From positions 1-64,000 of the forward strand of contig JAGFIY010000067.1 of NCBI GenBank assembly GCA_024103215.1: DNA of 64,000 nt. The letters are read 5' to 3'. The notes under the pieces were generated by a model that was not told where the DNA came from, made no database searches, and was given only the letters and a program-made list of their open reading frames with translations. Shown one piece after another: positions 6,303 through 35,285 of the stretch. The position numbers were made by a program, and so were the translations under genes. This DNA comes from Melioribacteraceae bacterium. GTDB taxonomy: Bacteria; Bacteroidota; Ignavibacteria; Ignavibacteriales; Melioribacteraceae. The stretch's first letter is position 1. The number at the start of each line of letters is the position of its first letter.

Positions 6303-7503
6303 TTATTTTATAGAAACTCGAGATTCTTGAATAAAATTTGAGTTCTTTTAATTGAATTATATTAAGCTCTTGATTTTGCTTCTTATTTAAAAGCTGCTCT
6401 GATCTAATAATTATTACTGTAAAAAATAATCCGGCTAAAAATAATACCGATAAAATAATGAATGATTTTTTGGGTGAGTATTTAAGTTGTGGTGGAATTG
6501 CTTCATCAAGAACTATAATATTCGGAAGATTTTTTTGTTCTTCCATCACTGCTTGCTCATATATTGGAAGAGTATATTCAAGAAGTTTAGATTGAACTTC
6601 TAAATTTCTGTAAATTCTAAAATATTCTCTTTGCAGAGTAGGAATCGTATCAAGTTTAAAAAAGACAACAGAGCTATTGGTTGTATATTTCCCTTTTTCT
6701 ATCTCATTTAATTTTTCTTTTAATAATTTAGCTTCTTGTTCGGCTAACTTATATGTAGGTGTATTTATACCTTGTGTGTTTTTGAGCAAATCCAACTGCA
6801 GTTCTTTCAGAGCCAGTTCGGATTCTAGTTTTGCCATTACCTGGAATGTTAGTTCAAATTGTTCCGGAATAACATAAACCTTATACTTTTCTTGAAAATT
6901 CTTAAGATCAACTTCAGCGGCACTAAGATCGTCTAAATTCTTAAAATACCTTTTCTCAACAAATTTTCTGTAACTTGTTGCATATTCAAGACTATAATGA
7001 CGATGCAGACTATCTAATACCTCAACAAAATAGTTAACTATGGATGCAGCAATCTCCGGATCTTCATGAATCATACTTATCTCAAGCAATCCATTTTCAG
7101 TCAAATCAAACTTCGCATCATCTCTAAGTGCTTTAAGTACTTTATCCCTCTTGTAACTTGTGATGTCGTAATAATCAATTAAATTAAATTTATCCACAAC
7201 ATTTAACAGAATTTTTCTACTTTCCAAATAGCCAAACAATTTTTCGGTACCGGTTCCAGAAGAACCCAACAATGCACTTCCCAAAAAAGATGAACCAACA
7301 TTTGAAAGCACATTGCCGAGAGCACCCATATTAGAATTCTCTTCGGCAAGCATAATTACCGAGTTCGCTTTAAATTTTTCCGGAATCAAAAAGGTAATAC
7401 CCAGAGTAATGAATGCTATTATTAACAAGTTTATAAAAAGCAACTTTTTCCATTTGTATAATATTGATAAGAAATCCGTAAACGTTCTTTTTTTTGATTC
7501 CAT
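6292..7503 (-). CDS. Wzz/GumC-type chain-length determinant protein
   Basis: 403 residues. An N-terminal membrane span (about 18-40) is followed by a long periplasmic, partly coiled-coil region (about 170-330) and a second span near 345-370 preceded by a 'PKKSF' motif, as in Wzz/PCP proteins. The short cytoplasmic tail lacks the Walker motifs of a fused tyrosine kinase, so this is a chain-length regulator without kinase. It would set polymer length together with the Wzy-like protein next door and connect to the SLBB exporter encoded just upstream (gap 15 bases). Confidence 0.85.
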   Translation of the reverse strand: MESKKRTFTDFLSILYKWKKLLFINLLIIAFITLGITFLIPEKFKANSVIMLAEENSNMGALGNVLSNVGSSFLGSALLGSSGTGTEKLFGYLESRKILLNVVDKFNLIDYYDITSYKRDKVLKALRDDAKFDLTENGLLEISMIHEDPEIAASIVNYFVEVLDSLHRHYSLEYATSYRKFVEKRYFKNLDDLSAAEVDLKNFQEKYKVYVIPEQFELTFQVMAKLESELALKELQLDLLKNTQGINTPTYKLAEQEAKLLKEKLNEIEKGKYTTNSSVVFFKLDTIPTLQREYFRIYRNLEVQSKLLEYTLPIYEQAVMEEQKNLPNIIVLDEAIPPQLKYSPKKSFIILSVLFLAGLFFTVIIIRSEQLLNKKQNQELNIIQLKELKFYSRISSFYKINAL

Positions 7504-7518
7504 TGAGTATTCTTCTAA

Positions 7519-9003
7519 TTATTTAAATAATAAAACTAAAGTTGCAACACCGCCTAAAATTCCGGCGATCGACCCGATAACGCCGAGATACCACCAGAAT
7601 TCTTGAATGGGTCTTTCTTTTTTAACATATATGTAATCTCCAGCTTCAACGGGAACTTCTTCATGATCCTCTACAAGGTACCAATCACGTGATTTGCCTT
7701 TAATGAGATAAACTTCATCATCACCGTATGCTATATCGGTATAACCGCCTGCATCATTTATATAATCCCAAACCGACTTTTGTCCATCGACGTTATAATA
7801 ACCGCTTTCTCTTACTCCTCCCCAAACGAACACTGTTTCGCTCTTTTGGGGTACAATTATTACATCTCCATCATTCACGATGAACTTTGAGGTTTCGGAA
7901 TCGGGTTTATTAATCTCTGCAAAATCAACACTAACCGAACTTTCAAAAATTCGTAATTGATTATCGAGTTTGAAATAAAGTGTATCCCGAAACTGCAGAT
8001 TTGCAGTTCGATACATTCTCAACAGTTCAAGATCTATTAAATTAGAGCGGAATGTTTCTTCCAAATCCATAAGGTTTTGCTCGGTTACGCTTCGTGCTAA
8101 AATTTCCTTCCGAAGAGTGTTGAATGAGTCATAATTTCTTACCAATTCCGAAAATTTTAATGAAGCATTAGGAGTAAACCCACCTGCTTTTTCAATTACT
8201 TCTTTAAGTGTTGTCGAATTTTTTGAAATTGGAATATAACCCGGTCTATTTACTTCGCCGAGTACAAGTACTTGATATTTTTGTTTGTTCAGTTCGGAAT
8301 ATAACACTCTTATTCTATCCCCAACTTGTAGAGGATATTCCTCATAAACCGGCACTTCAACTGTTTCGATTGTTTCACCGTTGTTTTTCAATCTTGTTAT
8401 TTCAGCTTTTGTGATATCGGTATAAGCGGTATTTATTCCATGTGCAAAGAAAATTGCAGTCTGAAGGTTATCCCCTTCAACAAATTGAAATTCTGTGGGT
8501 TTGTTTACTGCTCCGTCAATCGAAACAAAATGCACTTTATCATCATAAGCAGGAAAAACAATTACATCACCGTCTTTTAAGTAGGGATTGTGTTCAAAGT
8601 TCCCGGTTAATCGGAACATCGCTAAGTCAATAATTAGTTCCGAACCATCTTTCCTTTTTAGTTCAATATTTCTCAGAGCATATTTCTCAAAATTCTTCTT
8701 GAACTCTACCATGCCTTCTTCGCTTCGTACAGCCGTAAGCAGAGTAGCTTTAGTTTCATTGTAAATTCTCGTGACAAATTGATCTAATCTTTCAGTATTC
8801 AACGAAGGAAATGAACCGTTTACAATAAAATCGCCGCCAATAGTTATCGATATAGAATTAAAGGCAATGGCATTTATACTGTTTTGCGAATTCTCTGAAG
8901 AAGAGAATTGTGCACTGAGATTATTGAAGAAAATAAAACTTATTGCGAATAATATTGTTATCGGCTTAAACAACTTGCTCATGGGAATTATATTGTTCAT
9001 CAT
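7519..9003 (-). CDS. SLBB-domain polysaccharide export protein (Wza-like)
   Basis: 494 residues. An N-terminal signal peptide ends near 'FFNNLSAQ'. A polysaccharide-export domain with 'YLKDGDVIVFP' follows, then repeated SLBB folds marked by 'GAVNKP', 'LGEVNRPGYIP' and 'GGVRESGYYNVDG', and a single hydrophobic C-terminal helix (about 470-492). The family forms the outer-membrane or periplasm-spanning channel for exported polysaccharide. The open frame starts at 9003, but the ATG at 8982 (MSKLF) puts the signal peptide closer to the start and shortens the overlap with rmlB from 38 to 17 bases, so it may be the real start. Confidence 0.85.
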   Translation of the reverse strand: MMNNIIPMSKLFKPITILFAISFIFFNNLSAQFSSSENSQNSINAIAFNSISITIGGDFIVNGSFPSLNTERLDQFVTRIYNETKATLLTAVRSEEGMVEFKKNFEKYALRNIELKRKDGSELIIDLAMFRLTGNFEHNPYLKDGDVIVFPAYDDKVHFVSIDGAVNKPTEFQFVEGDNLQTAIFFAHGINTAYTDITKAEITRLKNNGETIETVEVPVYEEYPLQVGDRIRVLYSELNKQKYQVLVLGEVNRPGYIPISKNSTTLKEVIEKAGGFTPNASLKFSELVRNYDSFNTLRKEILARSVTEQNLMDLEETFRSNLIDLELLRMYRTANLQFRDTLYFKLDNQLRIFESSVSVDFAEINKPDSETSKFIVNDGDVIIVPQKSETVFVWGGVRESGYYNVDGQKSVWDYINDAGGYTDIAYGDDEVYLIKGKSRDWYLVEDHEEVPVEAGDYIYVKKERPIQEFWWYLGVIGSIAGILGGVATLVLLFK

Positions 9004-9991
9004 AATATTTTAAGTATTCCTTGTTTATAATTCTTTCCCACCAATTTTTGTTTTCCAGGTACCAATCAATCGTTTTAGAAATTGCCTCTTCGAAATCAAA
9101 TTTTGGTTTCCAGTTCAACTCAGTTTTTATTTTTGATGCATCAATTGCATATCGTCTGTCGTGACCGGGTCTGTCCTTAACGTATTCAATTAAGTCTTCC
9201 GATTTATTTAATTTTTCAAGAATCAGTTTAACTATATCTATATTTTTCATTTCGCGTTCGGCACCGATGTTATAAACCTCACCAATTTTTCCTTTATCGA
9301 GAACCATCTCTACCGCAAGATTATGATCTACAACATATATCCAATCGCGGACGTTTAATCCGTCTCCGTAAACCGGAAGCTTCTTTCCGTTTACAGTATT
9401 TAGGATCATTAAAGGTATTAATTTCTCGGGGAATTGGTAAGGACCGTAATTGTTTGAACATCGAGTGATTAATGTGGGAAGACCGTAGGTGTGATGAAAC
9501 GCCTGAACCATCAAATCGGCAGAAGCTTTGCTCGAAGAATATGGACTGTTGGGAGCTATCGGAGTAGTTTCAGTAAAGTATCCTTCCGGACCAAGACTCC
9601 CGTAAACCTCATCGGTTGAAACTTGCAGAAATTTTTCAATACCAAATCTTTTTGATGTTTCGAGAAGTATGTTTGTGCCGATTACGTTTGTCGTAAAGAA
9701 AACTTCAGAACCCAAAATGCTTCTATCAACATGTGATTCAGCAGCAAAATTAATCACATAATCAAATTTAAATTTTTCGAAAAGCGAGGTGATAAGCTCT
9801 TTATCGGTTATGCTTCCTTTTACAAAATTGTAATTGGAATTTCCCTCGGATTCTTTCAGATTCTCAAGGTTTCCAGCATATGTTAAAGAGTCAAGATTAA
9901 CGATTTTCCAATCATCTCTTTTCTTAAGAATTGTGTTGATAAAATTACTTCCAATAAATCCGGCGCCGCCGGTGACTAAAACATTTTTCAT
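8966..9991 (-). CDS. rmlB: dTDP-glucose 4,6-dehydratase
   Basis: 341 residues, full length for the family. It is a short-chain dehydrogenase-type protein with the NAD-binding 'GGAGFIGSNF' at residues 7-16, 'STDEVYGSLG' and the catalytic YxxxK in 'SPYSSSKASAD'. It converts dTDP-glucose to dTDP-4-keto-6-deoxyglucose, the branch point for dTDP-rhamnose and related deoxysugars. It is the first gene of the polysaccharide operon in this window. No rmlA, rmlC or rmlD is present here, so those steps must be encoded elsewhere or another deoxysugar is made. Confidence 0.95.
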   Translation of the reverse strand: MKNVLVTGGAGFIGSNFINTILKKRDDWKIVNLDSLTYAGNLENLKESEGNSNYNFVKGSITDKELITSLFEKFKFDYVINFAAESHVDRSILGSEVFFTTNVIGTNILLETSKRFGIEKFLQVSTDEVYGSLGPEGYFTETTPIAPNSPYSSSKASADLMVQAFHHTYGLPTLITRCSNNYGPYQFPEKLIPLMILNTVNGKKLPVYGDGLNVRDWIYVVDHNLAVEMVLDKGKIGEVYNIGAEREMKNIDIVKLILEKLNKSEDLIEYVKDRPGHDRRYAIDASKIKTELNWKPKFDFEEAISKTIDWYLENKNWWERIINKEYLKYYDEQYNSHEQVV

Positions 9992-10002
9992 TTTATACCA
10001 TA

Positions 10003-10743
10003 TTAAAAAGCTAAGAATCCTAAATATACACCTGTTTGAACAAAAAATGAATTGCCGGATAAATTATTCGGCACATTTTTTAATTCGATCTCATTTGCGT
10101 ATTCCCAATCCTCCCCCAAAGTAAATTGATAACCCCCTCCGGCTCTGAACGAGAGAAATCTGTTTATGGGAACATCTAAGTTTATTGTGGGACTGATAGT
10201 ATAATAATTATTTTCGATTAAATAAGTCTTTTTGCTTTCAGAGGGAGAATTTAAGTAATCATTCCAGACATCATCCCAATCGATTGATCCGCTGTTCTGA
10301 AAAACATTTATTTCAATGTTTCCTCTGCCGAGAATTGCTCCCACTGAGAGATTCACATTTTTAACAAACGGCAGAGTATATTCTATGCTTACGCCCCACC
10401 CGCCAATTGAGTACTCTGCTTCCCTAGTCGCAAAATCAAGCACATTTTCAACAGAGGACGAACCACCGAAACTCATTGCACCGATTCGTAAATTCTCGAT
10501 AAACAATACATAAGCATAGCCGCTCACTCCAAGAGCGAACACCCCACTCTTGCTTATTTCTCCCAACTCAAGCAGATTCAGCTTTGAATTGAGTTCGTCA
10601 ACATTAGGAAACATCCAAACGGGTGAGAAACCAAACGCTGCACCGAACTTCCCTATCTGAGCGCTTCTGCTTGACTGTGCTTGGACATCAAAACAGAGCA
10701 AAATAGCGAGAATCACAAAAATGCTTAAAGAGTTTTTCATCAT
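10003..10743 (-). CDS. exported protein of unknown function, likely outer-membrane barrel
   Basis: 246 residues that I do not recognise as a named family. A signal peptide (residues 1-22, ending 'DVQAQ') is followed by alternating short hydrophobic and polar stretches rich in glycine and aromatics. The C-terminus ends in phenylalanine ('YLGFLAF'), both typical of small outer-membrane beta-barrels in Bacteroidota relatives. It lies between ftsZ and rmlB on the same strand. A 179-base gap separates it from ftsZ, so it probably has its own promoter. No link to division or polysaccharide export can be shown from the sequence. Confidence 0.6.
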   Translation of the reverse strand: MMKNSLSIFVILAILLCFDVQAQSSRSAQIGKFGAAFGFSPVWMFPNVDELNSKLNLLELGEISKSGVFALGVSGYAYVLFIENLRIGAMSFGGSSSVENVLDFATREAEYSIGGWGVSIEYTLPFVKNVNLSVGAILGRGNIEINVFQNSGSIDWDDVWNDYLNSPSESKKTYLIENNYYTISPTINLDVPINRFLSFRAGGGYQFTLGEDWEYANEIELKNVPNNLSGNSFFVQTGVYLGFLAF

Positions 10744-10922
10744 AAATCTTTCAGGGGAAAAAATTAGCTAAACGAATTGTAATAATAATCAATTTTACTT
10801 ATTTGAGAAAATTTCGGCAGGTCAATTTTTTATATCATATGAATTAAGAAGAGACCGGACAAATGCCAATCATTGTCACCACAACAAGGAGACATAAAAT
10901 CCGGCCTCAACAGGAAAATGAA

Positions 10923-12194
10923 TTAATCCATCATCATACTTAGGAAAGACGAGCTGTCTTCGTCCCTCCAATCTTTTTCATCTTTTTTCGGCTTATGTTC
11001 TTCTTTACTGCTTTTAAGTTTATCGAACTTGAAACCACCTTTTTCTAAACCCGAAGAATCTTTCATAAAGTTGCCGGTACCTCTTACACGGTGAATAGTG
11101 GGAATATCGAGAATATTTCTGTCATTAAAATCCTCTTCATTAAATGCATAACCACCGTAAATCGGTTCTTCGATTTCCTGCTCTTCATCGACTTCAACTT
11201 GCTTAGCGGTTCTTTTTGATTTTGCATCATAGGAACTGAATCCGGTTGCAATTACTGTGTAAGAAACATATTCGTTCATGTCTTCTTTGTTTACCCAACC
11301 AAAGATAATATTTACTTCTTCGCCGGCAGCTTCATAAATTATTTTGTTGCCTTCTTGAATTTCCTGCATAGTTAGGTCGTTTGATCCGGTTACATTTAGA
11401 AGAATGTTTTTTGCTCCTTTAATATTAATACCTTCGAGCAGAGGAGATGAAATTGCTTTTTGAGCTGCTTCAATAGCGCGGTTTTCGCCGGAAGCAATTC
11501 CGCATCCCATAAGTGCTTCTCCGGACTCGTTCATTACCGAGCGAACATCGGCAAAGTCAACATTTATAATTCCGGTAATCGTAATAATATCAGCAATTCC
11601 TCTCGTAGCTTCGTAAAGAACTTCATTGGGTTTGTCGAATGCAGCGGAAGCAGAGACTTGTTTATCCAAAATGTTGAGCAGTCTTTCGTTAGGAATAACA
11701 ATCAAACTATCCACCGATCTCCTCAGTTCGTGGATTCCTTGTTCGGCATTCATCATTCTTTTTTTACCTTCCCACTTAAATGGTTTAGTAATTATACCTA
11801 CTACAAGCGAACCAAGGCTCTTCGCAATTCCCGCTACAAGCGGTGCTCCGCCAGTACCTGTTCCGCCGCCCATTCCGGCAGTGATGAACACCATATCACT
11901 TCCTTTAAGAACAGATTCAATTTTTTCCCTGTCCTCTTCCAAAGCTTTTCTACCAACGTTTGGATCGGCTCCGGCACCCAATCCGCGGGTAATATTCGTT
12001 CCAATTTGAATTTTGTGATGTGCGCTGCTGTTATGAAGGGCTTGTGAATCGGTATTTATTGCAACATATTCAACACCTTTTAAACCCTTCTTCATCATAC
12101 TTTCTATTGCATTACAGCCGCCGCCTCCAACGCCAACGACTCGAAGTTTAGCAGAATCGATCTGATCGCGATCAAGTGTACAGAATTTTGGCAT
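10923..12194 (-). CDS. ftsZ: cell division protein FtsZ
   Basis: 423 residues. This is the tubulin-like GTPase that forms the division ring. Visible marks are the N-terminal 'GVGGGGCNAIE' nucleotide loop, the tubulin signature 'GGGTGTGGAP' near residue 107 and the synergy-loop 'NVDFADVRSVM'. The conserved C-terminal tail peptide that normally contacts FtsA is recognisable as 'LDIPTIHR', but about 54 more residues follow it, charged and ending 'FLSMMMD', so it is not at the extreme end. It is the last gene of the dcw cluster, 26 bases after ftsA. Confidence 0.97.
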   Translation of the reverse strand: MPKFCTLDRDQIDSAKLRVVGVGGGGCNAIESMMKKGLKGVEYVAINTDSQALHNSSAHHKIQIGTNITRGLGAGADPNVGRKALEEDREKIESVLKGSDMVFITAGMGGGTGTGGAPLVAGIAKSLGSLVVGIITKPFKWEGKKRMMNAEQGIHELRRSVDSLIVIPNERLLNILDKQVSASAAFDKPNEVLYEATRGIADIITITGIINVDFADVRSVMNESGEALMGCGIASGENRAIEAAQKAISSPLLEGINIKGAKNILLNVTGSNDLTMQEIQEGNKIIYEAAGEEVNIIFGWVNKEDMNEYVSYTVIATGFSSYDAKSKRTAKQVEVDEEQEIEEPIYGGYAFNEEDFNDRNILDIPTIHRVRGTGNFMKDSSGLEKGGFKFDKLKSSKEEHKPKKDEKDWRDEDSSSFLSMMMD

Positions 12195-12220
12195 TTTAAT
12201 CCTCCTTGTTGTGGTATTTA

Positions 12221-13462
12221 TTATAATTCGTCAAATATCTCCTGTAATCTTCGGATAAAGTTCGAAAAAATATTTTTCTTCTTTTTTGAAGATTTATCCT
12301 TAATAATTGAATCAGATGCTGTTGAACCGGGAATACCTTTTATCAATCCTGCAACAGTTGCAAATTCCGGACTTCCGATTTCGTTCGATAATCCGCTTCC
12401 TAACTCCAACGGAACTCCGATTCTTGCCGGACATCCGAACACTTCCTCCGCAAGTTCAGTGCAGCCTTTCAGGAGCGAACCACCGCCGGTCAACACGACG
12501 CCGGCTTTAATTTTATTTTTTGTCCCGGAATTTCTTATATCGTTTTCAATAATCGTAAACAACTCACGCATCCGCACGCTAATAATCTGGGTTAAAAGCG
12601 AGATCGGAATTTTAATATTTCCTCTTGCTCCAACTCCTTTAATATAAATGTCCTCATCCTTAATTATCGCACTTTCCGTTGCATATCCGTATTCTTTTTT
12701 AAGCTTCTCCGCCTCTTCAGTTACAATTCCGAGAGTTTCACGAATATCTTTCGTAACTTGATTTCCCGCAACTCCGATTACTTTTGTGTGTACAATACTT
12801 TTTTCACTATATATTGCGACATCGGTTGTGCCGCCCCCTATATCTATCAGTACAACTCCAAGATCTTTTTCGCTTTCGTCGAGAACCGATAAAGATGAAG
12901 CAATCGGTTGAAGTATATATTCTCGAATTCTCAAACCGGCTCGTTCAACTGATTTTTTTATGTTCTGAATTGCCGGAATTGACGCAAGCACGACATGATT
13001 GACTGCTTCGAGTCTTGAACCGCACATACCAATCGGGTCTTCTATTCCACCTTGATGATCAATTATGTACTCTTCCGGAATAATGTGGAGAATTTGTCTA
13101 TCGGAGGGAATGCGGATTGTCTTTACATCTGTTTTTAATCTCTCAAGATCATCTGCTAAAATTTCATTATCCGGGTTGCTTATTGTTACATAGTTTCTGT
13201 GTCTTAAACTGGTGATATGTTCGCCGGCAACTCCAACATTCACTTCGTCAACCTCAACGCCGGCTCGGTTAATTGCGATGTCCAAAGCCTCTCTAATAGC
13301 CTCAGCTGTTTTTGCAATATTAGCTACAAGCCCTCTATTTAATCCTTCGGAAGGAGCAACACCAAAACCCAGGATATCAATTAAATCACCGTTTTTTTCT
13401 GCAATCACCGCACCGACTTTTGTCGTACCTAAATCTAATCCGGCTACAATATTCTTTTTCAT
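12221..13462 (-). CDS. ftsA: cell division protein FtsA
   Basis: 413 residues of the actin-like ATPase that tethers FtsZ to the membrane. The phosphate loops 'GLDLGTTKVG' (residues 9-18) and 'DIGGGTTDVAIY' and the adenosine motif 'VLTGGGSLLKG' are all present. The C-terminus ends in an amphipathic segment ('FSNFIRRLQEIF') that matches the membrane-targeting helix. Its ATG overlaps the ftsQ stop as ATGA, which suggests coupled translation. Confidence 0.96.
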   Translation of the reverse strand: MKKNIVAGLDLGTTKVGAVIAEKNGDLIDILGFGVAPSEGLNRGLVANIAKTAEAIREALDIAINRAGVEVDEVNVGVAGEHITSLRHRNYVTISNPDNEILADDLERLKTDVKTIRIPSDRQILHIIPEEYIIDHQGGIEDPIGMCGSRLEAVNHVVLASIPAIQNIKKSVERAGLRIREYILQPIASSLSVLDESEKDLGVVLIDIGGGTTDVAIYSEKSIVHTKVIGVAGNQVTKDIRETLGIVTEEAEKLKKEYGYATESAIIKDEDIYIKGVGARGNIKIPISLLTQIISVRMRELFTIIENDIRNSGTKNKIKAGVVLTGGGSLLKGCTELAEEVFGCPARIGVPLELGSGLSNEIGSPEFATVAGLIKGIPGSTASDSIIKDKSSKKKKNIFSNFIRRLQEIFDEL

Positions 13463-16712: not shown

Positions 16713-17820
16713 TTACTCTAACCAAAGTTATATCCTTCCGTTTTTGATTTTCAATTCCGATGTTGATAATAATGCCGACAGAGATTGCAAACAGAATAAT
16801 CGATGTTCCGCCAAAGCTGATGAACGGAAGTGTAATTCCTGTAGTTGGGAACAAACCAGTCACGACCGCAGCATTTATAAAAGCACTCAACACAATGTTT
16901 ACCGAGAACGCGAATGCGAGCAGTTGACCAAATTTATCTTTTGCTTTTTTTGCCACAATTAATCCAATTAAAAAAATTGATAAATAAGCAAATAAAACAA
17001 GAACGGTTCCTATAAAACCTATCTCTTCACCAACGATTGAAAAAATAAAATCGCCGTAAGCTTCGGGAAGGAAAAAATCACTTTGTCTGCTTTGCCCGAT
17101 TCCTACACCAAACAATCCGCCGCTTCCCAAACCTATCTTTGCCTGCAGCACTTGAATGTTGATTTCGCCGCCCTTTGTAAATCCTTTTACGAAATCAAAA
17201 ATTCTTTCCCTCGAATGAGAGAACAACATCATAACACTTCCTGCACTTACAATGCCGGTAAACATTATTGATGCTAAATGTTTAATTCTTGCTCCGCCAA
17301 CAAAAAGTAAAATAAATGAAAGCATAACAATTATAAGACTCGTGCTTACATTTGGTTGGAGCATTACCAAAAATGCAACAAGACCTATCCAGACCAACAA
17401 ATAAAAAAGTCCGTTTTTGAAATCTTGAATATGTTCGCCTTTCTTTTCAATAAGAACTGCTAAGTGTGTCAAAAGCACAAACTTTGCAAGCGAAGACGGC
17501 TGAAATTGAAGAAAGCCTAAATCAATCCATCTTTTTGCCCCTTTAATCTCGGGAGCGAAAAAGAATGTAAGAATTAGTATAAAAATAACAATCACCATTG
17601 CAATTTTGCTGTAATCTCTGTAGTGTTTGTACGGAATTAGCGAGAAAAGTATCATTGCACCCACCGCGATAAGCACTTTCCAAATATGAGACTGAAACAT
17701 CGTATAAATGCTATCAGTTTTAGACGCACTGAATGTCCCGCTCGCGGAAAATACCATTGCTGCGCCTATGATCATCAATACAACAACAATTACAGCTAAT
17801 GATCTTACAACTATTTTCAT
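16696..17820 (-). CDS. ftsW: SEDS-family septal peptidoglycan glycosyltransferase FtsW
   Basis: 374 residues, about ten membrane spans, with the SEDS landmarks 'GAKRWIDLGFLQFQPSSLAK' around residue 94 and the C-terminal 'GITLPFISFGGTS'. FtsW polymerises lipid II at the septum together with the transpeptidase FtsI encoded in the same cluster. RodA is the close relative, but the position between murD and murG identifies FtsW. Its start overlaps the murD stop (ATGA). Confidence 0.95.
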   Translation of the reverse strand: MKIVVRSLAVIVVVLMIIGAAMVFSASGTFSASKTDSIYTMFQSHIWKVLIAVGAMILFSLIPYKHYRDYSKIAMVIVIFILILTFFFAPEIKGAKRWIDLGFLQFQPSSLAKFVLLTHLAVLIEKKGEHIQDFKNGLFYLLVWIGLVAFLVMLQPNVSTSLIIVMLSFILLFVGGARIKHLASIMFTGIVSAGSVMMLFSHSRERIFDFVKGFTKGGEINIQVLQAKIGLGSGGLFGVGIGQSRQSDFFLPEAYGDFIFSIVGEEIGFIGTVLVLFAYLSIFLIGLIVAKKAKDKFGQLLAFAFSVNIVLSAFINAAVVTGLFPTTGITLPFISFGGTSIILFAISVGIIINIGIENQKRKDITLVRVNDQTV

Positions 17821-28320: not shown

Positions 28321-28342
28321 TAAGCCTCAACAATGAGGCTTA
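28321..28342 (-). terminator. displaced original terminator of the tRNA-Thr gene
   Basis: A perfect 9-base hairpin (TAAGCCTCA, loop ACAA, TGAGGCTTA) is followed on the minus strand by TTTTGTTTT. It lies 13 bases beyond the stranded tRNA 3' fragment at 28356-28397. It is most simply the host tRNA's own terminator, now cut off from the tRNA by the inserted element. Confidence 0.65.
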
Positions 28343-28350
28343 AATTTTTC

Positions 28351-28397
28351 GAACGAGCCGACTATCGGACTTGAACCGATGACCTGCTCATTACGAA
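28351..28397 (-). repeat. left attachment copy with stranded 3' half of tRNA-Thr
   Basis: 47 bases identical to 35208-35254 except at one position (T at 28388, G at 35245). On the minus strand bases 28356-28397 are the 3' half of a tRNA-Thr: anticodon loop, anticodon-stem 3' arm, T arm and acceptor strand. The 5' half is missing, so this is a non-functional fragment. Its anticodon-stem arm (TGAGC) pairs perfectly with the 5' arm (GCTCA) of the intact gene, which marks it as the original host sequence. Confidence 0.9.
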
Positions 28398-28484
28398 GGA
28401 ACAGGTTTCTTTTATTTTTATCCTCTAAATGGACTTTTTTTAGCAACTCCCTACATTTTTCCTTAAAGATTTGGGAGTATTTCA

Positions 28485-29567
28485 ATGTACTTAACCAAAT
28501 CAAAAAAGTCTCCATACTATCAAATCATATTTGAAAGAGACGGTAAAAGAACAACTAAAAGCACTAAAACAAAAATCAAATCTGAGGCTCTAAAGTTCCT
28601 TTCCAATTTTGAAAAAAAGATAAATGAGAAAAAGAAAATTGAGACGGTTTCTCTAAAAGATTTTAGAGAACACTATCTAAATTATTTATCAGGCACTCAT
28701 TCGCAAAATTATCAAAGAGCAGTTAGAACTAGTTTTAGAGAATTGTTAAAATTTTGTGGAAACATAGACTTAAACAAAATTTCAATCGTTTCTATCGATA
28801 CCTTTATTTCAAAAGTATATGAGAGAGCTCCACAAAGTTCATTAACTTACTACAGAATATTAAAAGCGGCTTTTAACAAGGCTTTGAATTGGGATTTAAT
28901 AGAATCAAATCCTCTTATGAAAATACGAGCTCCAAAAATCAAAAAGAACTTACCGATCTTTATTTCTCAAACCGAACTAAATATAATTTTAGATTTTGTT
29001 TCTGAGGATTATCTTAAAAATCTTTATTTATTTGCTTTCCATACTGGACTTAGAGCCGGCGAAATAGTTAATTTAAAGTGGAATTCTGTTTCATTGAAAA
29101 AAAGGATTATCACATTACACCAGTCAAATAGTTACACTACGAAAAGTAAAAAAGAGAGAGTAATACCTATCAATTCCAAACTTTACAATATCCTTTATAG
29201 CATTTTTCCCATAGAAAAAGAAATAAATTCCATTTTAGGAAATGCGGAAAATTTAAAGCTGCCTGATTATGTATTTTGCCGGATTAAGGGAGTTAAACTA
29301 GGAACGGATTTCATTTCTAAAAAATTCAAGAAGGCAATTAGGAAAGCCGGTATGAACGATAAAATCCATTTGCATACTCTCAGGCATAGCTTTGCTAGTA
29401 ATCTTGTTCAAAGGGGGGTTTCATTGTACACTATTAAGGAATTACTTGGACATTCGGATTACAGGACTAGCCAAATATATTCACACTTGCAGCACAACAA
29501 TTTATTTGAAGCTGTAGAATTATTATCTGAATCTGATTCTAAGAATAACGGTTTTAAATTGCCTTGA
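28485..29567 (+). CDS. tyrosine recombinase/integrase (element integrase 1)
   Basis: 360 residues. A short N-terminal arm-binding-like region (about 1-45, lysine-rich) is followed by a core-binding SAM-like domain (about 55-140) and the catalytic domain. The catalytic set is complete: Arg in 'HTGLRAGEI' near residue 190, Lys in 'KKERVIPI', His-x-x-Arg in 'LHTLRHSFAS', His in 'LLGHSDYR' and the nucleophilic Tyr in 'QIYSHL'. It starts just inside the left attachment copy and is the best candidate for inserting the element into tRNA-Thr. A 111-bp DNA block (28971-29081) is almost identical to part of the second integrase. Confidence 0.93.
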   Translation: MYLTKSKKSPYYQIIFERDGKRTTKSTKTKIKSEALKFLSNFEKKINEKKKIETVSLKDFREHYLNYLSGTHSQNYQRAVRTSFRELLKFCGNIDLNKISIVSIDTFISKVYERAPQSSLTYYRILKAAFNKALNWDLIESNPLMKIRAPKIKKNLPIFISQTELNIILDFVSEDYLKNLYLFAFHTGLRAGEIVNLKWNSVSLKKRIITLHQSNSYTTKSKKERVIPINSKLYNILYSIFPIEKEINSILGNAENLKLPDYVFCRIKGVKLGTDFISKKFKKAIRKAGMNDKIHLHTLRHSFASNLVQRGVSLYTIKELLGHSDYRTSQIYSHLQHNNLFEAVELLSESDSKNNGFKLP

Positions 29568-29862
29568 TTCGTTCATAAATCGATTCTGAGGCACTTTGTT
29601 TTTAAAAGGATACCCAAAGCCGTCTTAATTTCTTAATTACTACTATTTTTTGATAAATGTTTTGATTTTAAGCTAAAAACGTACAAAAAGACACTTAGTA
29701 ATTAAGACAAAAGCCGTCTTAATTACTATCTTAATTAGTATAAATAACTTATTATTACGATATATGAGAGATTTACAAAGAAATAAAATGAGTTGGATAA
29801 ATCCAAAATTATAAAGTAATTTATAGTTAGATATTGTTAACCATAATTTAGGCAGGTAAATT
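29568..29862. other. non-coding interval with palindromic repeats inside the element
   Basis: 295 bases, very AT-rich, with no convincing gene. It contains GTCTTAATT at 29622-29630, then the perfect inverted pair at 29698-29726, and a run of A/T leading to the next gene, whose start is preceded by 'ttaggcaggtaaatt'. It could hold a promoter, operator or replication origin; nothing in the sequence decides which. Confidence 0.6.
29698..29726. repeat. palindromic site, GTAATTAAGAC / 7 nt / GTCTTAATTAC (copy 1)
   Basis: Perfect 11-base inverted repeat with a 7-base spacer (AAAAGCC). A site with identical arms and identical spacing occurs at 34655-34683, at the other end of the element's gene block. 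A partial copy lies at 29622-29640. Conserved arms with different spacers suggest a dimeric protein-binding site or origin iteron rather than only an RNA hairpin. Confidence 0.8.
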
Positions 29863-30531
29863 ATGAGTGAATTTAAGTTCTTAGATCAACTAAGTAACAA
29901 AGATTTACATTTATTAGAAGATATTAAATCAGATTTCAAAAAAGAGACCGGAAAAGATTTCTTTCTCAAAATTGATTCTTTGGATTATATCTTAAACCAC
30001 TATCGGCACATTTTAGAAAACATTCCAGGACCAAAAACCAAACAAATTCAAAGAGTAAGAAGGACAAATTTTGTTAATAGTTGGTATGGTAATGAAAGGG
30101 AAATTTTTAGAGAAAAAGTATTTGCCTCAGACCTTGACAAAACTAATTCTAGTAAAATAAAGGTAATTAAAACTAAAATTGGATTTGTAAAGCAGTTAAA
30201 AAAGAAACTCGAAAATGAGTTATTAAAAAAATCAATGATACCGGAAATAAGTTCTAAGAAAACTTTAGATATTATTCAATCCGATCCAATCTTTAATAAA
30301 CTTTCAAAAGAAACAAAGGATTTAATCCAAGTAGAAAATGGAAACCTTATTTGGAAAGGTAATATTAAGATGTTTTGCGAAAATGTAATTAATGAAACGT
30401 ATAATCCAGATATGGAATTTGATCTATATGTAAATGATTTATATAACAAGTTTGAATTTGCAAAATTTCCAGATTATACCGTAAAAAGATTAATTGAAAA
30501 TGCAAAAAAACATAAAGCAATTAGATATTGA
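29863..30531 (+). CDS. element protein of unknown function
   Basis: 222 residues, no signal peptide or membrane span, rich in lysine, asparagine and isoleucine. I do not recognise a family. The middle (about residues 95-130) is strongly basic and probably helical ('KQLKKKLENELLKK'). The C-terminal half contains 'LIWKGNIKMFCENVI' and ends in another basic stretch. Basic helices are compatible with nucleic-acid binding, which is only a guess. It lies between the two integrase genes, immediately upstream of the structured leader at 30571-30712. Confidence 0.6.
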   Translation: MSEFKFLDQLSNKDLHLLEDIKSDFKKETGKDFFLKIDSLDYILNHYRHILENIPGPKTKQIQRVRRTNFVNSWYGNEREIFREKVFASDLDKTNSSKIKVIKTKIGFVKQLKKKLENELLKKSMIPEISSKKTLDIIQSDPIFNKLSKETKDLIQVENGNLIWKGNIKMFCENVINETYNPDMEFDLYVNDLYNKFEFAKFPDYTVKRLIENAKKHKAIRY

Positions 30532-30570
30532 AAAAAGTGAGAAAATAAGTGAAATAAAGTGAATGACATA

Positions 30571-30712
30571 GCGGCTTAGCTGCCGTAAGTTTGAATAGTT
30601 TGTTTAATGTAATGAACTAGGGCAGGCTAGCCAAATAGGGAATTAAATAGAGCCTTTTGGAAACTTCGATGCTACCTGCCTAGCTGAGAAGTGGAAGAAA
30701 GGCTTTTTTTTT
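30571..30712 (+). promoter_or_regulatory. structured leader with attenuator-like hairpin before integrase 2
   Basis: A GC-richer island. A terminator-like hairpin is formed by AGCCTTT (30651-30657) with AAAGGCT (30698-30704), inner stems ACTTC/GAAGT and GCTA/TAGC, and loop CCTGCC, followed by nine T ending 6 bases before the integrase ATG. GGCAGGCTAGC (30621-30631) can instead pair with GCTACCTGCC (30671-30680), which would open the terminator. A separate small hairpin (CGGC/GCCG) sits at 30572-30585. Two mutually exclusive structures suggest attenuation or a small RNA. Nothing is known directly. Confidence 0.5.
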
Positions 30713-30718
30713 GAGAAA

Positions 30719-31693
30719 ATGCAAAACATAGAATTAATTCACCTTGCTGCCGACTTGCTTCAAAGACTTAGTTCCGATAAGAACTTAAAACTTGAAGAGT
30801 TTGCGAACGAATATATAGGCTACCTAACCGGCACTCATTCACGGAGCTACATTAGAGGCAACCGAACGGCATTTAATCAGTTAGGAAGCTATTTGGGAAA
30901 CATATATTTAAAACAATTAAATGTTAAAGCTGTTGATGCGTTTATAAATAGCACCTATCAACGAAGTCCACAAGCTGCAGCTACATATTATAGAATTTTA
31001 AAAGCAGCATTTAACAAAGCGGTGCAATGGAATTATTTAATAGATAATCCATTCAACAAAATAAAAGCTCCACGCCTCAAAAAGAACTTACCAGTATTTA
31101 TAAATGAAACCGAACTAAATATAATTTTAGATTTTGTTTCTGAGGATTATCTTAAAAATCTTTATTTGTTTGCCTTCCATACCGGACTTAGAGCCGGTGA
31201 AATAGTTAATTTAAAGTGGTGTTCTGTATCACTATCAGAAAGAATAATTACTCTGAAGCAATCAAATACATACACAACAAAGAACCGAAAAGAGAGAATA
31301 ATACCAATTAATTCTACAGTCTATCAATTACTTTCCGAAATCTATCCAATTGAAAGACAAATAGATAACATACTGGGTTATTCCAACAATAAACTGAAAG
31401 CCGATTATATATTTTATCGGATTAGAGAAGTTAAATTAAGAACGGATTTTGTCAGTAAAAAATTTAAAAGGGCAGTAAGAAAAGCCGGATTAAACCATCA
31501 AATACACTTACATACACTTAGGCACTCATTTGCTTCTAACTTGGTGCAAAGGGGGGTTTCATTAATTATAATAAAGGAACTCCTAGGACATAGTGATTAT
31601 CGGACTAGCCAAATTTATTCACATCTGCAACAATCAAATTTAAAGAATGCAGTCGAAAAACTAACTAACAACAAAGGGGGGGAATATGAATAA
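30719..31693 (+). CDS. second tyrosine recombinase (element integrase 2, short N-terminus)
   Basis: 324 residues. It lacks the first ~45 residues of integrase 1 (the arm-binding-like part) but has a full core-binding domain and catalytic set: Arg in 'HTGLRAGEI', Lys in 'KERIIPI', His-x-x-Arg in 'LHTLRHSFAS', His in 'LLGHSDYR', Tyr in 'QIYSHL'. It is therefore probably active. Bases 31109-31219 match integrase 1 at 107 of 111 positions, far closer than the surrounding sequence. This points to recent exchange or gene conversion. The ATG follows a T-rich terminator-like hairpin, and the 3' end overlaps the next gene by 8 bases. Confidence 0.88.
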   Translation: MQNIELIHLAADLLQRLSSDKNLKLEEFANEYIGYLTGTHSRSYIRGNRTAFNQLGSYLGNIYLKQLNVKAVDAFINSTYQRSPQAAATYYRILKAAFNKAVQWNYLIDNPFNKIKAPRLKKNLPVFINETELNIILDFVSEDYLKNLYLFAFHTGLRAGEIVNLKWCSVSLSERIITLKQSNTYTTKNRKERIIPINSTVYQLLSEIYPIERQIDNILGYSNNKLKADYIFYRIREVKLRTDFVSKKFKRAVRKAGLNHQIHLHTLRHSFASNLVQRGVSLIIIKELLGHSDYRTSQIYSHLQQSNLKNAVEKLTNNKGGEYE

Positions 31694-32141
31694 TTTATAT
31701 TCATTAAGTTCTAAACAACCAAACTACCGGTATGTATCAGACCGAGAGACCGTATTAATTAACGTTAGGGATCATTGCGGAAATCAAACATCAAAGCTAG
31801 CCGTATGCTATTATGACCGTTCCTCAGATTATTTTGCGGAAATGCAAACCAACAAGCCGGTTTATTTGGATTCGAACAGCTACATACTTTTAAACCAGTG
31901 GCAAGCTATGACGTTAAGCAGCCATTCATTTGATCGATTTGAACTAGATAATGATTCACTTCAAATTAGAGTAATAGACGGAGTGCAGCCGTACCAAATA
32001 GGGTTGAGTTCAATTCGGGATAAACGAGATGTATTAAACTGGGTTTATCATTTAAGTTCAAAGAATTGGATAACGAAAGAAATAATACAAGATTTTATTC
32101 TTTTATGTAGTATAGTTTTTAATTTTGATCTTCGGATTTAA
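31686..32141 (+). CDS. small element protein of unknown function
   Basis: 151 residues, soluble, unrecognised. Its ATG overlaps the end of integrase 2 and is preceded by a run of seven G that can serve as ribosome binding site. It ends two bases before the primase-like gene, so it is probably co-transcribed with the replication genes. A 'YILLNQWQAMTLSSHSFDRF' stretch and a hydrophobic C-terminus ('FILLCSIVFNF') are the only notable features. A role as replication accessory or regulator is possible from position only. Confidence 0.55.
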   Translation: MNNLYSLSSKQPNYRYVSDRETVLINVRDHCGNQTSKLAVCYYDRSSDYFAEMQTNKPVYLDSNSYILLNQWQAMTLSSHSFDRFELDNDSLQIRVIDGVQPYQIGLSSIRDKRDVLNWVYHLSSKNWITKEIIQDFILLCSIVFNFDLRI

Positions 32142-32143
32142 AA

Positions 32144-33289
32144 TTGATTATCCAAATTAAAAATAACGTCTCCATCTTGCAAGTCCTTTCTTATTTGGGA
32201 TTGAAGCCGAACGGCAGCAATTTTATTAACTCAATTTATAAGGACGAAAAAACACCTTCATTAAAAATATATCCAGAAACAAATACCTTCTTTTGTTTTG
32301 CAACAGATCAAGGTGGAGACGTTATAAAGTTTTATTCTGATTATAACAGGATAGATACAAAGCAGACAATCAAAGAACTATCGGAAATCTTTTCGATCAA
32401 AAAATATCCTTATTCAAACGATCTATCTGTTTCCGGTGAAGCAAAAAGCAACCGGCAGCCGGAACAAAAATATTTCTTATTGCAATCGGAAAAAGAATTA
32501 TTCGATGAAAGAGCTGCAATAGTGGAATTTGACGGAAACGAAGATCAACAAACAGCCGAATCATTAGCATTTAATCAGATTTTGGAAAACCGGAAAGAGA
32601 TTCAATCAAAAATATATGAAGCAGTTTATAAGTTTAGCTTATCAAAAGGATTTGACGAAGCAGCATATAAGTATTTAACCGGAAAGAACAGAGGACTTAC
32701 CGAAAAATCGATAAATGATTTTAGACTTTTTACGATTAACGGAGTAAAGGAAATAATTGAGTTTCTTAAAGATAATTTCAGTAGAGACGAAATAAAGATT
32801 TCCGGTTTTTTCAAGAACAAATATTTCATATTTACTAAGCATAGGCTAATCATTCCTTACATTGAAAACGGCAAGATCGTTTATTTAAGAGGGCGTTATT
32901 TCTACAAAGGCAATATCGAACCGGAAAATTTCGGGAAATACATAGGTTTGAATAATTGGAGTCTTACACTCAGTCCTAAAAGATTTTATAATTCTGATTT
33001 GTTGAAAGAACTTATTCCATATGAAGATTTAATAATTACTGAGGGTGAATTTGATTGCATAATAACAAACCAGATCGGATATAAAGCTGTAGGAATTTCG
33101 GGAGTTTCAAATTTTCCAGAACAAAAGATCAAACAAGTTAAAAACTACAATATTCATTTAGCCTTTGATTCGGACGAAGCCGGACAAAAAGCAATTAAAA
33201 AAATTTCACATCTATTTGACAAGCCAATTAAAGTAATAAAGCTGAAAGTTCACAAAGATTTAACGGAGTTATTCAATGCAGAACAATAA
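32144..33289 (+). CDS. primase-like protein, degenerate CHC2 zinc-finger fold plus TOPRIM domain
   Basis: 381 residues. The N-terminal ~70 residues match the DnaG CHC2 zinc-finger pattern in spacing and flavour ('VLSYLGLKPNG', 'EKTPSLKIYPE', 'GGDVIKFY'), but the usual Cys/His ligands are mostly gone: only one Cys remains, in 'FFCFAT'. A TOPRIM domain follows near residues 285-350, with the catalytic glutamate in 'IITEGEFD' and the acidic pair in 'AFDSDEAGQ'. It probably helps replicate the element. The only plausible start is a TTG at 32144. It overlaps the next gene by 14 bases. Confidence 0.75.
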   Translation: MIIQIKNNVSILQVLSYLGLKPNGSNFINSIYKDEKTPSLKIYPETNTFFCFATDQGGDVIKFYSDYNRIDTKQTIKELSEIFSIKKYPYSNDLSVSGEAKSNRQPEQKYFLLQSEKELFDERAAIVEFDGNEDQQTAESLAFNQILENRKEIQSKIYEAVYKFSLSKGFDEAAYKYLTGKNRGLTEKSINDFRLFTINGVKEIIEFLKDNFSRDEIKISGFFKNKYFIFTKHRLIIPYIENGKIVYLRGRYFYKGNIEPENFGKYIGLNNWSLTLSPKRFYNSDLLKELIPYEDLIITEGEFDCIITNQIGYKAVGISGVSNFPEQKIKQVKNYNIHLAFDSDEAGQKAIKKISHLFDKPIKVIKLKVHKDLTELFNAEQ

Positions 33290-34646
33290 TTCATTAAAAG
33301 ATTTATCAAAAGTAGAAATCAAAGAAGTAAATAAGCATAAAGATAATGAAATTAGATTCGATCTAAGTTTACTGAATGAATCTGTATTTAAAAGAATGAT
33401 TGTTTACTATGATTCAGTTTCACAAAGTCCGCTAGAGTATTTATTAACCGGAACTATAGCAAGTCTTTCCGGTGCAGCCGGTAAAAATATTTATTTCAAG
33501 ATTACCGATTCTATGTTGATTCATTTAAATGTTTGGGCTGTAATAATAGGACGTTCTACTGTTATGAGAAAAACGAGTGCTTTAAACCTAGTGAAAGAAG
33601 ATTTACAGAGAATAGAATCAAAAAATTATAGTGAGTTCAAAAAGATTTATGATTCATATTTGCTAGACTTAGAACGAGCAGCAAACAAAAAGGAAAGAGC
33701 CGAAATAAAAAAACCGATTCGGAAATATTATTTACTTCCGCAAGACAGCACTATCGAATCCTTATCAGATATTTTATCACATTCGGATAGGGGTTTATTA
33801 ACTCATTCGGAGTTTGGCAGTTTTCTGCTTCAACTCAATAGGGGTTATTCTGCAGACGCTAAACAGTTCTTAACTACTCTTTACGATGTTCCAGATGTTT
33901 ATGAAGTTTCTAGAGTAACTAAAGAAAACACTTTATTAGAAAGACCTTATATAAGTATTTTGGGAGCTTCAACTATCGACTGGATTAAAGAAAACAGTTC
34001 CGAATCCGATTTAAGATCGGGATTCTTTGCAAGGTTTATTTATTCAATCCGCAACATACCAGATAAGCAGTTTATTCCATTGTTGAAGCTAAGGGAAATT
34101 ACAAAAAGATCGGAGTATTATATAAACACTAGAGAAATTTATAATTATTTGATTGGACTGAATGATAAAATAGAATTAGAGATAACAAACGAAGCTGCAG
34201 ACTATCATATCAAATATGATCTTGATAGTTATAAGGAATTATTGAACTCAGAAAATGAAAACGAATTAAGTTTTAAGGCAAGATTATTGATTTACTCTCT
34301 AAAGTTTGCCGGTTTAATTGCACTAACAGAAAAACGGCATACTATAAACCTGAACGATATGAAAGACGCTATAAATATAACTGAGTATTACAAAAAGAAT
34401 GTTGAAGCATTGTTGAATAAAGAATTGATCGATAATGATTTTGAAAGAAAGGAACAAAAGATTATTTCATTAATTAACCGGAACGGAAATAAAATAATAA
34501 GATCAACTTTGTTGAATAACTTTAAAGGCAAGGCTAAGGATTTAGATGAATTGCTAGAGAATTTGAAGGAAAAGGAATTAATTGAAGTAATTAAGGAAAA
34601 AAAACCTACTGGTAAAACTGCAACTTACTACAGAGTAATTAAGTAA
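33276..34646 (+). CDS. DUF3987-like putative replicative ATPase/helicase
   Basis: 456 residues. It resembles the DUF3987 proteins found next to primases in phages and islands: a conserved opening ('PLEYLLTGTIASLSGAAGKN'), then a P-loop-like 'IIGRSTVMRKTSAL' near residue 95. The loop departs from the classic GxxxxGKT form. A short C-terminal winged-helix-like part (about 385-450, 'IISLINRNGNKIIRSTLL') may bind DNA. Its position directly after the primase-like gene suggests a primase-helicase pair. Family assignment is by eye and moderate; helicase activity is inferred only from context. Confidence 0.6.
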   Translation: MQNNNSLKDLSKVEIKEVNKHKDNEIRFDLSLLNESVFKRMIVYYDSVSQSPLEYLLTGTIASLSGAAGKNIYFKITDSMLIHLNVWAVIIGRSTVMRKTSALNLVKEDLQRIESKNYSEFKKIYDSYLLDLERAANKKERAEIKKPIRKYYLLPQDSTIESLSDILSHSDRGLLTHSEFGSFLLQLNRGYSADAKQFLTTLYDVPDVYEVSRVTKENTLLERPYISILGASTIDWIKENSSESDLRSGFFARFIYSIRNIPDKQFIPLLKLREITKRSEYYINTREIYNYLIGLNDKIELEITNEAADYHIKYDLDSYKELLNSENENELSFKARLLIYSLKFAGLIALTEKRHTINLNDMKDAINITEYYKKNVEALLNKELIDNDFERKEQKIISLINRNGNKIIRSTLLNNFKGKAKDLDELLENLKEKELIEVIKEKKPTGKTATYYRVIK

Positions 34647-34762
34647 TTAAGACAGTAATTAAGACGTTTTTTGTCTTAATTACTCCAAGCTCTTTTCCTT
34701 TGTTTTTAGCTTATTTTCTTAATAATTATATAAATATATATAGAATAAAGAGTAATTAAGAC
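34643..34762. repeat. cluster of GTAATTAAGAC repeats at the distal end of the element gene block
   Basis: Direct copies lie at 34643-34653 (overlapping the end of the ATPase-like gene), 34655-34665 and 34752-34762, with an inverted copy at 34673-34683. The pair at 34655-34683 forms the same 11-7-11 palindrome as 29698-29726. Copies 12 bases apart in direct orientation plus a palindrome are arranged like replication iterons or a multi-site operator. Confidence 0.75.
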
Positions 34763-35176
34763 GTTAAGAAGGGGGTTAGGGGTAAAAAAAAAGAATGCTT
34801 TAAGATTTAACAAAGGTACTTTCCAGGATTTTATATACGGATTGCGGCGACTTGCAGAAAAAGGCTACTTTTATATAATTTTATATTAGCCTGTTCCTGT
34901 TTATTTACTGTAGCTATTGAGAGAAAAAATAATTTTCCTTAACTTCATTTCTAAAAGCTAAACGTTCATAAAAATTTTTTATTTACGAAAAAAGCCGGTT
35001 TGGTTTTATAGGGCTTTGAACTCCCTTGCTTTTCCAGATCGGTTTTTTTCATTAATAAAATCTTTAGGAAAATAGTTCTTTGGAGTTCTGAAAAAGTCCA
35101 TACAAAAGTCCCTCAAACTTTGGCAAGAAAAGGCTAGTAATGAGATGGTTTGTTTAAATTTAACTAAAACAAAAAA
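34763..35176. other. non-coding interval at the right end of the element
   Basis: About 410 bases with no gene I can support. A short open frame without a start codon runs through 34752-34889 and reads protein-like in part ('FNKGTFQDFIYGLRRLAEKG'), possibly a remnant. Around 34990-35050 a partly complementary pair (GCCGGTTTGG and CCAGATCGGT followed by seven T) could be a weak terminator for the element's plus-strand genes. Confidence 0.5.
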
Positions 35177-35203
35177 TCCTTATAACTTATTTAGTTATAA
35201 GGA
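35177..35203 (-). terminator. element-supplied terminator of the tRNA-Thr gene
   Basis: A perfect 11-base inverted repeat (TCCTTATAACT / AGTTATAAGGA) with 5-base loop is followed on the minus strand by six T. It lies 10 bases beyond the tRNA 3' end. It is unrelated in sequence to the displaced terminator at 28321-28342, so the element brought its own terminator along with the tRNA 3' half. Confidence 0.8.
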
Positions 35204-35207
35204 CTTA

Positions 35208-35254
35208 GAACGAGCCGACTATCGGACTTGAACCGATGACCTGCGCATTACGAA
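35208..35254 (-). repeat. right attachment copy within tRNA-Thr
   Basis: Partner of 28351-28397, 46 of 47 bases identical. It covers the anticodon loop to the 3' end of tRNA-Thr plus five bases. The single difference, G at 35245, creates a mismatch in the tRNA anticodon stem. This half therefore came from the element. Confidence 0.9.
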
Positions 35255-35285
35255 TGAGCTGCTCTACCAACTGAGCTAAGTCGGC
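35213..35285 (-). tRNA. tRNA-Thr (anticodon CGT)
   Basis: A 73-base cloverleaf without encoded CCA: acceptor GCCGACT/AGTCGGC, D arm GCTC/GAGC, anticodon loop TTCGTAA, T arm ATCGG-TTCAAGT-CCGAT. The anticodon CGT reads ACG (threonine). The anticodon stem GCTCA/TGCGC has a central U-C mismatch, absent from the stranded host fragment at 28356-28397. This is the integration target of the element. It lies 19 bases after the bS22/mS38-like gene and is probably on the same transcript. Confidence 0.92.

Follow-up and report, generated by a model that had tools for sequence, protein, structure and literature searches.

The window, by which we mean the whole stretch of 64,000 nucleotides analysed (contig JAGFIY010000067.1), contains a 6,857-bp insertion at 28351-35254 in a tRNA-Thr(CGT) gene, which is probably a minimal phage satellite, a pared-down member of an undescribed satellite family of the Ignavibacteriales. 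Phage satellites are known from few bacterial groups, and this Bacteroidota order is itself known largely from metagenomes. Because tail and packaging genes are missing from the window element itself, its satellite status rests on kinship: genes, att position and a structured RNA, R1, tie it to a family in which the larger members have genes for terminase, tail completion and tape measure but no recognised capsid gene. New here are R1 itself, a terminator hairpin with a loop complementary to the ribosome-binding site of p222 (a protein of unknown function), and element-specific repeats at two sites.

A previous sequence-only reading had proposed that the element is framed by 47-bp repeats of tRNA-Thr, and these repeats are real, agreeing at 46 of 47 positions, with a wider match of 96% over 50 nt between 28348-28397 and 35205-35254 (Table 1). 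The right-hand copy is the 3' part of the intact tRNA-Thr(CGT) gene, on the minus strand at the right end of the element. The tRNA is now served by a new terminator carried on the element, and the old terminator is stranded outside attL. All six plus-strand genes of that reading were found as intact open reading frames: both integrases match Phage_integrase, the primase-like protein combines CHC2 and Toprim, the 456-amino acid protein matches DUF3987, and the two unknowns (p222 and p151) have no Pfam match. It had also noted a lack of capsid and transfer genes, and indeed Pfam and PHROG-type profile searches returned no capsid, portal, terminase, relaxase or coupling protein. There were no convincing defence genes among the proteins scanned.

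The two recombinases of the window element are close paralogues, with 65% amino acid identity and a run of 300 nt at 78% DNA identity, and, judged from sequence only, both keep the expected catalytic residues. In the recombinase tree, two old clades hold the int1 and int2 proteins of most elements; in the window, L021, L023 and L155, int2 clusters with its own int1, and one recombinase copy has therefore replaced the other more than once. The p222 protein is fast evolving, with a single detectable homologue among 164 genomes, at the same place in L021, and fold searches with its predicted structure (pLDDT 69) gave no match; the structure model of p151 was too poor for a fold search.

Table 1. 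Features of the element and its insertion site, in window coordinates
Feature	Position	Strand	Basis and remarks
Original tRNA-Thr terminator	28321..28342	-	Terminator scan and sequence; beyond attL after integration
attL	28351..28397	.	47-bp copy of tRNA-Thr 3' half; 46/47 identical to 35208-35254
int1, tyrosine recombinase, 360 aa	28485..29567	+	Phage_integrase E 3e-33; orthologues 42-59% identical in relatives
Repeat site 1, inverted copies of AGTAATTAAGAC	29622..29740	.	After int1; 27 9-mers in common with site 2, p 0.001
p222 ribosome-binding region TAGGCAGGTA, proposed small-RNA target	29849..29858	+	Complementarity test
p222, unknown protein	29863..30531	+	No Pfam match
CTAGGGCAGGCTAGC, mimic of p222 ribosome-binding site, can pair with hairpin loop	30617..30631	+	Sequence
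Terminator hairpin, proposed small RNA	30650..30712	+	Fold with CCUGCC loop apical; loop 30673-30682
int2, tyrosine recombinase, 324 aa, sister of int1	30719..31693	+	Phage_integrase E 2e-35; tree support 100/96
p151	31686..32141	+	phrog_12459 7e-10; no Pfam match; C-terminal domain recurs in relatives
Primase, CHC2 zinc finger and Toprim, 381 aa	32144..33289	+	Pfam CHC2 and Toprim matches
DUF3987 helicase/primase-like protein, 456 aa	33276..34646	+	PF13148 E 1.9e-24
Repeat site 2, AGTAATTAAGAC repeats around A+T-rich stretch 34714-34743	34634..34762	.	After DUF3987; candidate replication origin
R1 structured RNA	34937..35055	+	R1 covariance model 94.7 bits; covariation
R1 parts	upstream strand 34952-34969; hairpin 34988-35049; pairing part of loop 35016-35033
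Replacement tRNA-Thr terminator, element-borne	35174..35206	-	Terminator scan
attR	35208..35254	.	Within tRNA gene
tRNA-Thr(CGT)	35212..35285	-	ARAGORN; Rfam 64.1 bits; intact, reconstituted by element

Orthologues of the DUF3987 protein, 44-72% identical, occur in nine other genomes of the order, with Melioribacteraceae, Ignavibacteriaceae, Ignavibacterium and Stygiobacter among the named hosts. Six of these relatives are complete at both ends (L021, 7.0 kb; L022, 11.4 kb; L023, 7.9 kb; L026, 4.4 kb; L027, 5.3 kb; L028, 8.0 kb), lie in tRNA-Thr(CGT or TGT), tRNA-Met or tRNA-Lys genes and carry neither capsid nor relaxase. Their recurrent gene order is int1, a variable protein, int2, small proteins, the primase and DUF3987, the exceptions being L026, without int2 and the variable protein, and L027, without a recognised primase. 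Given that these six relatives, in other genera, hold a like gene block between 47-87-nt repeats of their own tRNA genes, chance can be excluded, and the window element is real, conserved and compact. The sequence-only reading would have fallen had relatives lacked tRNA repeats or been decayed pieces of something larger; every relative with both ends on its contig has such repeats, and none is part of a larger prophage or conjugative element.

The tRNA-Thr(CGT) gene adjoins the same TPR gene at 29 of 30 loci examined. At this TPR-linked site the element is present in the window and G126 only, with other integrases at two loci; R1 also lies beside tRNA-Thr(CGT) in G105 and G006. The remaining sites are best described as showing no sign of the element within ∼1 kb and are not proven empty, because int1 sits at the far end of the element, and an empty-site test by CorA synteny gave nothing because the flank is not conserved. 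Beyond attL in L022 there are further tRNA-Thr fragments (17049-17109), as though the site had been occupied before by another element. We also observed a second type of twin-recombinase island that is common in the order (L146-L150, L158, L161 and others), with two convergent int1-type recombinases, a ∼775-amino acid protein (Prim-Pol and PriCT_2 in L146) and variable cargo.

In several relatives there are single phage genes for tail parts or for DNA packaging, implying travel in the particles of other viruses. Inside the att repeats of L022, a 633-amino acid tape-measure protein (phrog_8462, 3e-52) is encoded 34 nt after DUF3987, and in L023, again inside the repeats, the int2 and primase genes flank one for a tail-completion protein (phrog_27, 1.6e-18; above the cut-off for Pfam Minor_tail_Z). 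Two R1-bearing elements, L193 and L196, found through R1 without recourse to these tail genes, and the R1-bearing IMG/VR contig L212 combine a TerL gpA terminase with a tape measure and a tail-completion protein between att repeats 12.3-12.8 kb apart. The TerL matches score 1.7e-82 and 2.8e-83 in L193 and L196, to which L212 is 76-88% identical, and TerS is present in L212, with L193 and L196 having homologues of it; of the proteins scanned in these three elements, none was recognised as capsid or portal. With further tape measures in L200, L155, L159 and L207, at least eight elements that belong to the family or are allied to it have a tape measure, and three have a terminase. More distant DUF3987 elements of other Bacteroidota also have terminase genes, large and small in L082 and small in L084. 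These two (L082 at 5410-12478), from other Bacteroidota families, also have a small HTH gene and resemble PICMIs with terminase. No family member turned up when viral contigs were scanned with DUF3987, with the primase of the window element or with the tape measure of L022, the primase giving a 27% match only and DUF3987 none at all, and a helper search found no tail-gene homologues in ten host genomes tested.

The sequence-only reading had left the element as either a phage satellite or a cryptic mobilisable island. That description holds, and the tail genes of L022 and L023, with the terminase, tail-completion and tape-measure genes of L193, L196 and L212, now favour its satellite half. Under the other half, a conjugative helper acting on an unrecognised oriT, or else natural transformation, would move it as an integrative mobilisable element or genomic island, and the tail genes of relatives would be passive cargo. 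Small Bacteroidota islands of the NBU type, with a primase and an integrase, are mobilised by conjugation, and the absence of a packaging gene from the window element would suit such a route; however, the element has no relaxase or coupling gene either, and random cargo would not keep bringing back phage morphogenesis genes without capsid genes, as the recurrent tape measures and terminases do here. We therefore regard a conjugative or transformational island as unlikely. Still harder to sustain is a prophage that has decayed by loss of its structural genes, for which the phage-type integrase, primase and helicase could be cited: all six genes are intact with no structural-gene remnants, and the compact layout, att ends exact, is shared by elements at different tRNA genes across several genera; such conserved minimal relatives already speak against decay. 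A phage satellite remains the preferred reading. That the sequence-only reading knew of no described family in Ignavibacteria with this gene order agrees with a full-text literature search, in which no paper combined Ignavibacteria with both prophage and satellite.

Nine closely related elements were compared, and each has a hairpin between DUF3987 and attR, its stem 16 bp long and its loop 28-34 nt. A covariance model of this R1 RNA found 21 further loci, located by the RNA only. The resulting table of 30 loci comprises the nine model sequences, 20 new loci and L212. R1 matches are present in 27 of 160 genomes of the order and, among 396 genomes of the phylum, in none that lies outside it, and no Rfam match to R1 was found in the window or in the family members searched. 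A tRNA gene (tRNA-Val, Ser, Phe, Met, Thr and others) lies within ∼400 nt at 24 of the 30 loci, and att repeats frame 17. The window element meets the definition of the R1 family, with R1 beside attR, an int1-type recombinase at the other end and tRNA att repeats. Of the pair cells in 29 aligned sequences, 94.9% are paired, double changes occur in 16 of 19 pairs, and the covariation score is 0.668 compared with 0.27 in shuffles and no more than 0.23 when slid, with the caveat that the alignment was fitted to the model and so favours the structure. The loop also pairs with the strand just upstream, at p ≤ 0.05 in 13 of the 20 loci not used to form this idea (Fisher 3.5e-15), the window's own pairing not being significant alone (p 0.10-0.41). 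The R1 structure and the family are well supported. What R1 does is inferred: no consistent target was found when its loop was compared with gene starts, and its place upstream of attP and int1 in the circular form suggests control of int1. It is possible, although we put this forward only tentatively, that R1 represents a new class of regulatory RNA, confined in our sample to one order and positioned beside attP, that couples integration state to recombinase expression and makes immunity or incompatibility specific to the individual element, the latter because loop and partner strand covary freely.

R1 also occurs in att-framed mini-elements of 1.2 and 1.7 kb without a recombinase (L195 at 12186-13372, and L206 at 10565-12337 in the reverse-complement coordinates of L206), possibly dependants of larger elements. 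Contigs L199, L205 and L209 stop ∼10 to 130 nt from the R1 5' end, as if the assembly had broken at a sequence with several contexts.

A second RNA may act on p222. The p222-int2 interval (30532-30718) folds better than its shuffles (z -2.5), and the apical loop TACCTGCCTA of its terminator hairpin is a perfect 10-nt complement of the p222 ribosome-binding site (p 0.002). When the interval was compared with every gene start tested, leaving out the gene whose leader lies inside it, the best perfect helix fell on the preceding protein in six of seven elements (p 0.002-0.007 each), with a complementary sequence that differs in nearly every one of the six; L028 fails the test (p 0.98). The idea was drawn from four of the seven elements; with these set aside, the remaining three give 8e-4. 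Whole-duplex energies failed to single out p222; being dominated by A+U-rich pairing and by self-overlap at int2, they were replaced by the perfect-helix test. A small RNA directed against the p222 start is, on these complementarities and without expression data, moderately supported.

Two other explanations bear on these RNAs. Both hairpins might be ordinary intrinsic terminators with incidental complementarities, which is compatible with a satellite and competes only with the control proposed for it. T runs do end both hairpins, and R1 would halt transcription running antisense into the tRNA, yet this account explains neither the covariation of R1 loop and upstream strand over 20 independent loci nor why, in six of seven elements, the complementarity falls on the start of the preceding gene, and we think it somewhat unlikely. 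That R1 is a guide RNA steering the recombinase to a particular tRNA might be supposed from its position adjoining att and from loops that differ between elements; however, L027 and L202 are both at tRNA-Lys(CTT) and have different loops, so we rejected this role as scarcely credible.

The 12-mer AGTAATTAAGAC, which can form a hairpin, occurs at two sites inside the window element, and in five of seven elements 9-mers are common to both sites (p 0.001), in sequence that is largely element-specific. By analogy, we infer that these sites could form a two-site origin like that of P4. For the satellite as a whole, we propose that int1 would integrate and excise the element, perhaps assisted by int2 or p222 (there are no excision data), and that the DUF3987 protein and primase would replicate the circle from the origin formed by the two repeat sites. 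Capsid, tail and lysis would be provided by a helper phage, and relatives with their own tape measure might build chimeric tails; helper use, origin function and packaging are all inferred, with no helper identified and no packaging data. A small hairpin RNA from the p222-int2 interval may pair with the p222 ribosome-binding site and hold p222 off, which under this inferred control would make p222 the likely trigger, and R1, which in the circle immediately precedes attP and int1, could act as a pseudoknotted terminator limiting transcription into int1.

A satellite family in the Ignavibacteriales, seen in 27 of 160 genomes by R1 alone, has R1 as the sequence signature by which the rest of it can be found. 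Its members are graded in size and content, from recombination-and-replication elements of 4.4 kb up to elements of 12 kb that have terminase and tape measure, so that comparing them can test what the minimal satellite gene set is; the proposed small RNA offers a testable switch. The family also adds independent cases of satellite-encoded tape measures, hitherto experimentally shown in PLEs only.

The window element is a discrete integrated element with att repeats, an integrase and replication genes and without a full virion set, which fulfils the general criterion for a satellite, although it fully meets the membership criteria of none of the known families. The PICMI satellites of Vibrionaceae replicate with a DUF3987 primase and lack capsid-remodelling genes (PMC10803314), and the window element is likewise very small, with an integrase and DUF3987 core, few accessory genes and no capsid remodelling, meeting their criterion of a DUF3987 (or DUF5906) primase (PF13148, 1.9e-24). 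In contrast, PICMIs sit at fis and need AlpA, whereas our element sits at tRNA-Thr(CGT), none of its six proteins has a Pfam match to AlpA (PF05930 or PF12728), and it has two recombinases, a separate CHC2/Toprim primase and R1. The PLE satellites of Vibrio cholerae use a tape measure that they encode themselves to build chimeric tails (PMC12987554), and relatives described here also encode one; the window element differs in that no tape measure or tail assembly chaperone was found in it (Pfam, PHROG), and in host phylum and core genes. Unlike PICIs and cf-PICIs, it has no terS, capsid or packaging genes with an alpA or stl regulator, terminase being restricted to larger relatives, and unlike integrative mobilisable elements it has no relaxase, coupling protein or recognisable mobilisation gene.

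Satellite P4 has a two-site origin (ori and crr) with element-specific repeats, and a small antisense RNA (CI) serves as its immunity switch. The two-site repeats and the proposed small antisense RNA of our element would be close functional parallels, although P4 capsid, polarity and head genes are absent from it (no PHROG or Pfam match to the head-size and polarity genes) and DUF3987 and the primase stand in place of an alpha-type initiator. Just under the Rfam cut-off, c4-2 matches (E ∼1e-5 to 1e-4) lie in the terminase-bearing elements L212 (1995-2064, plus strand) and L193 (10873-10941, minus strand); the window element has no C4 covariance-model match up to E 10. In the C4 antisense RNA of phages P1 and P7 (Rfam clan CL00128), loops cover a ribosome-binding site (PMC5320573), and the small RNA proposed here resembles it in placing a loop over a ribosome-binding site through pairing that is specific to each element.
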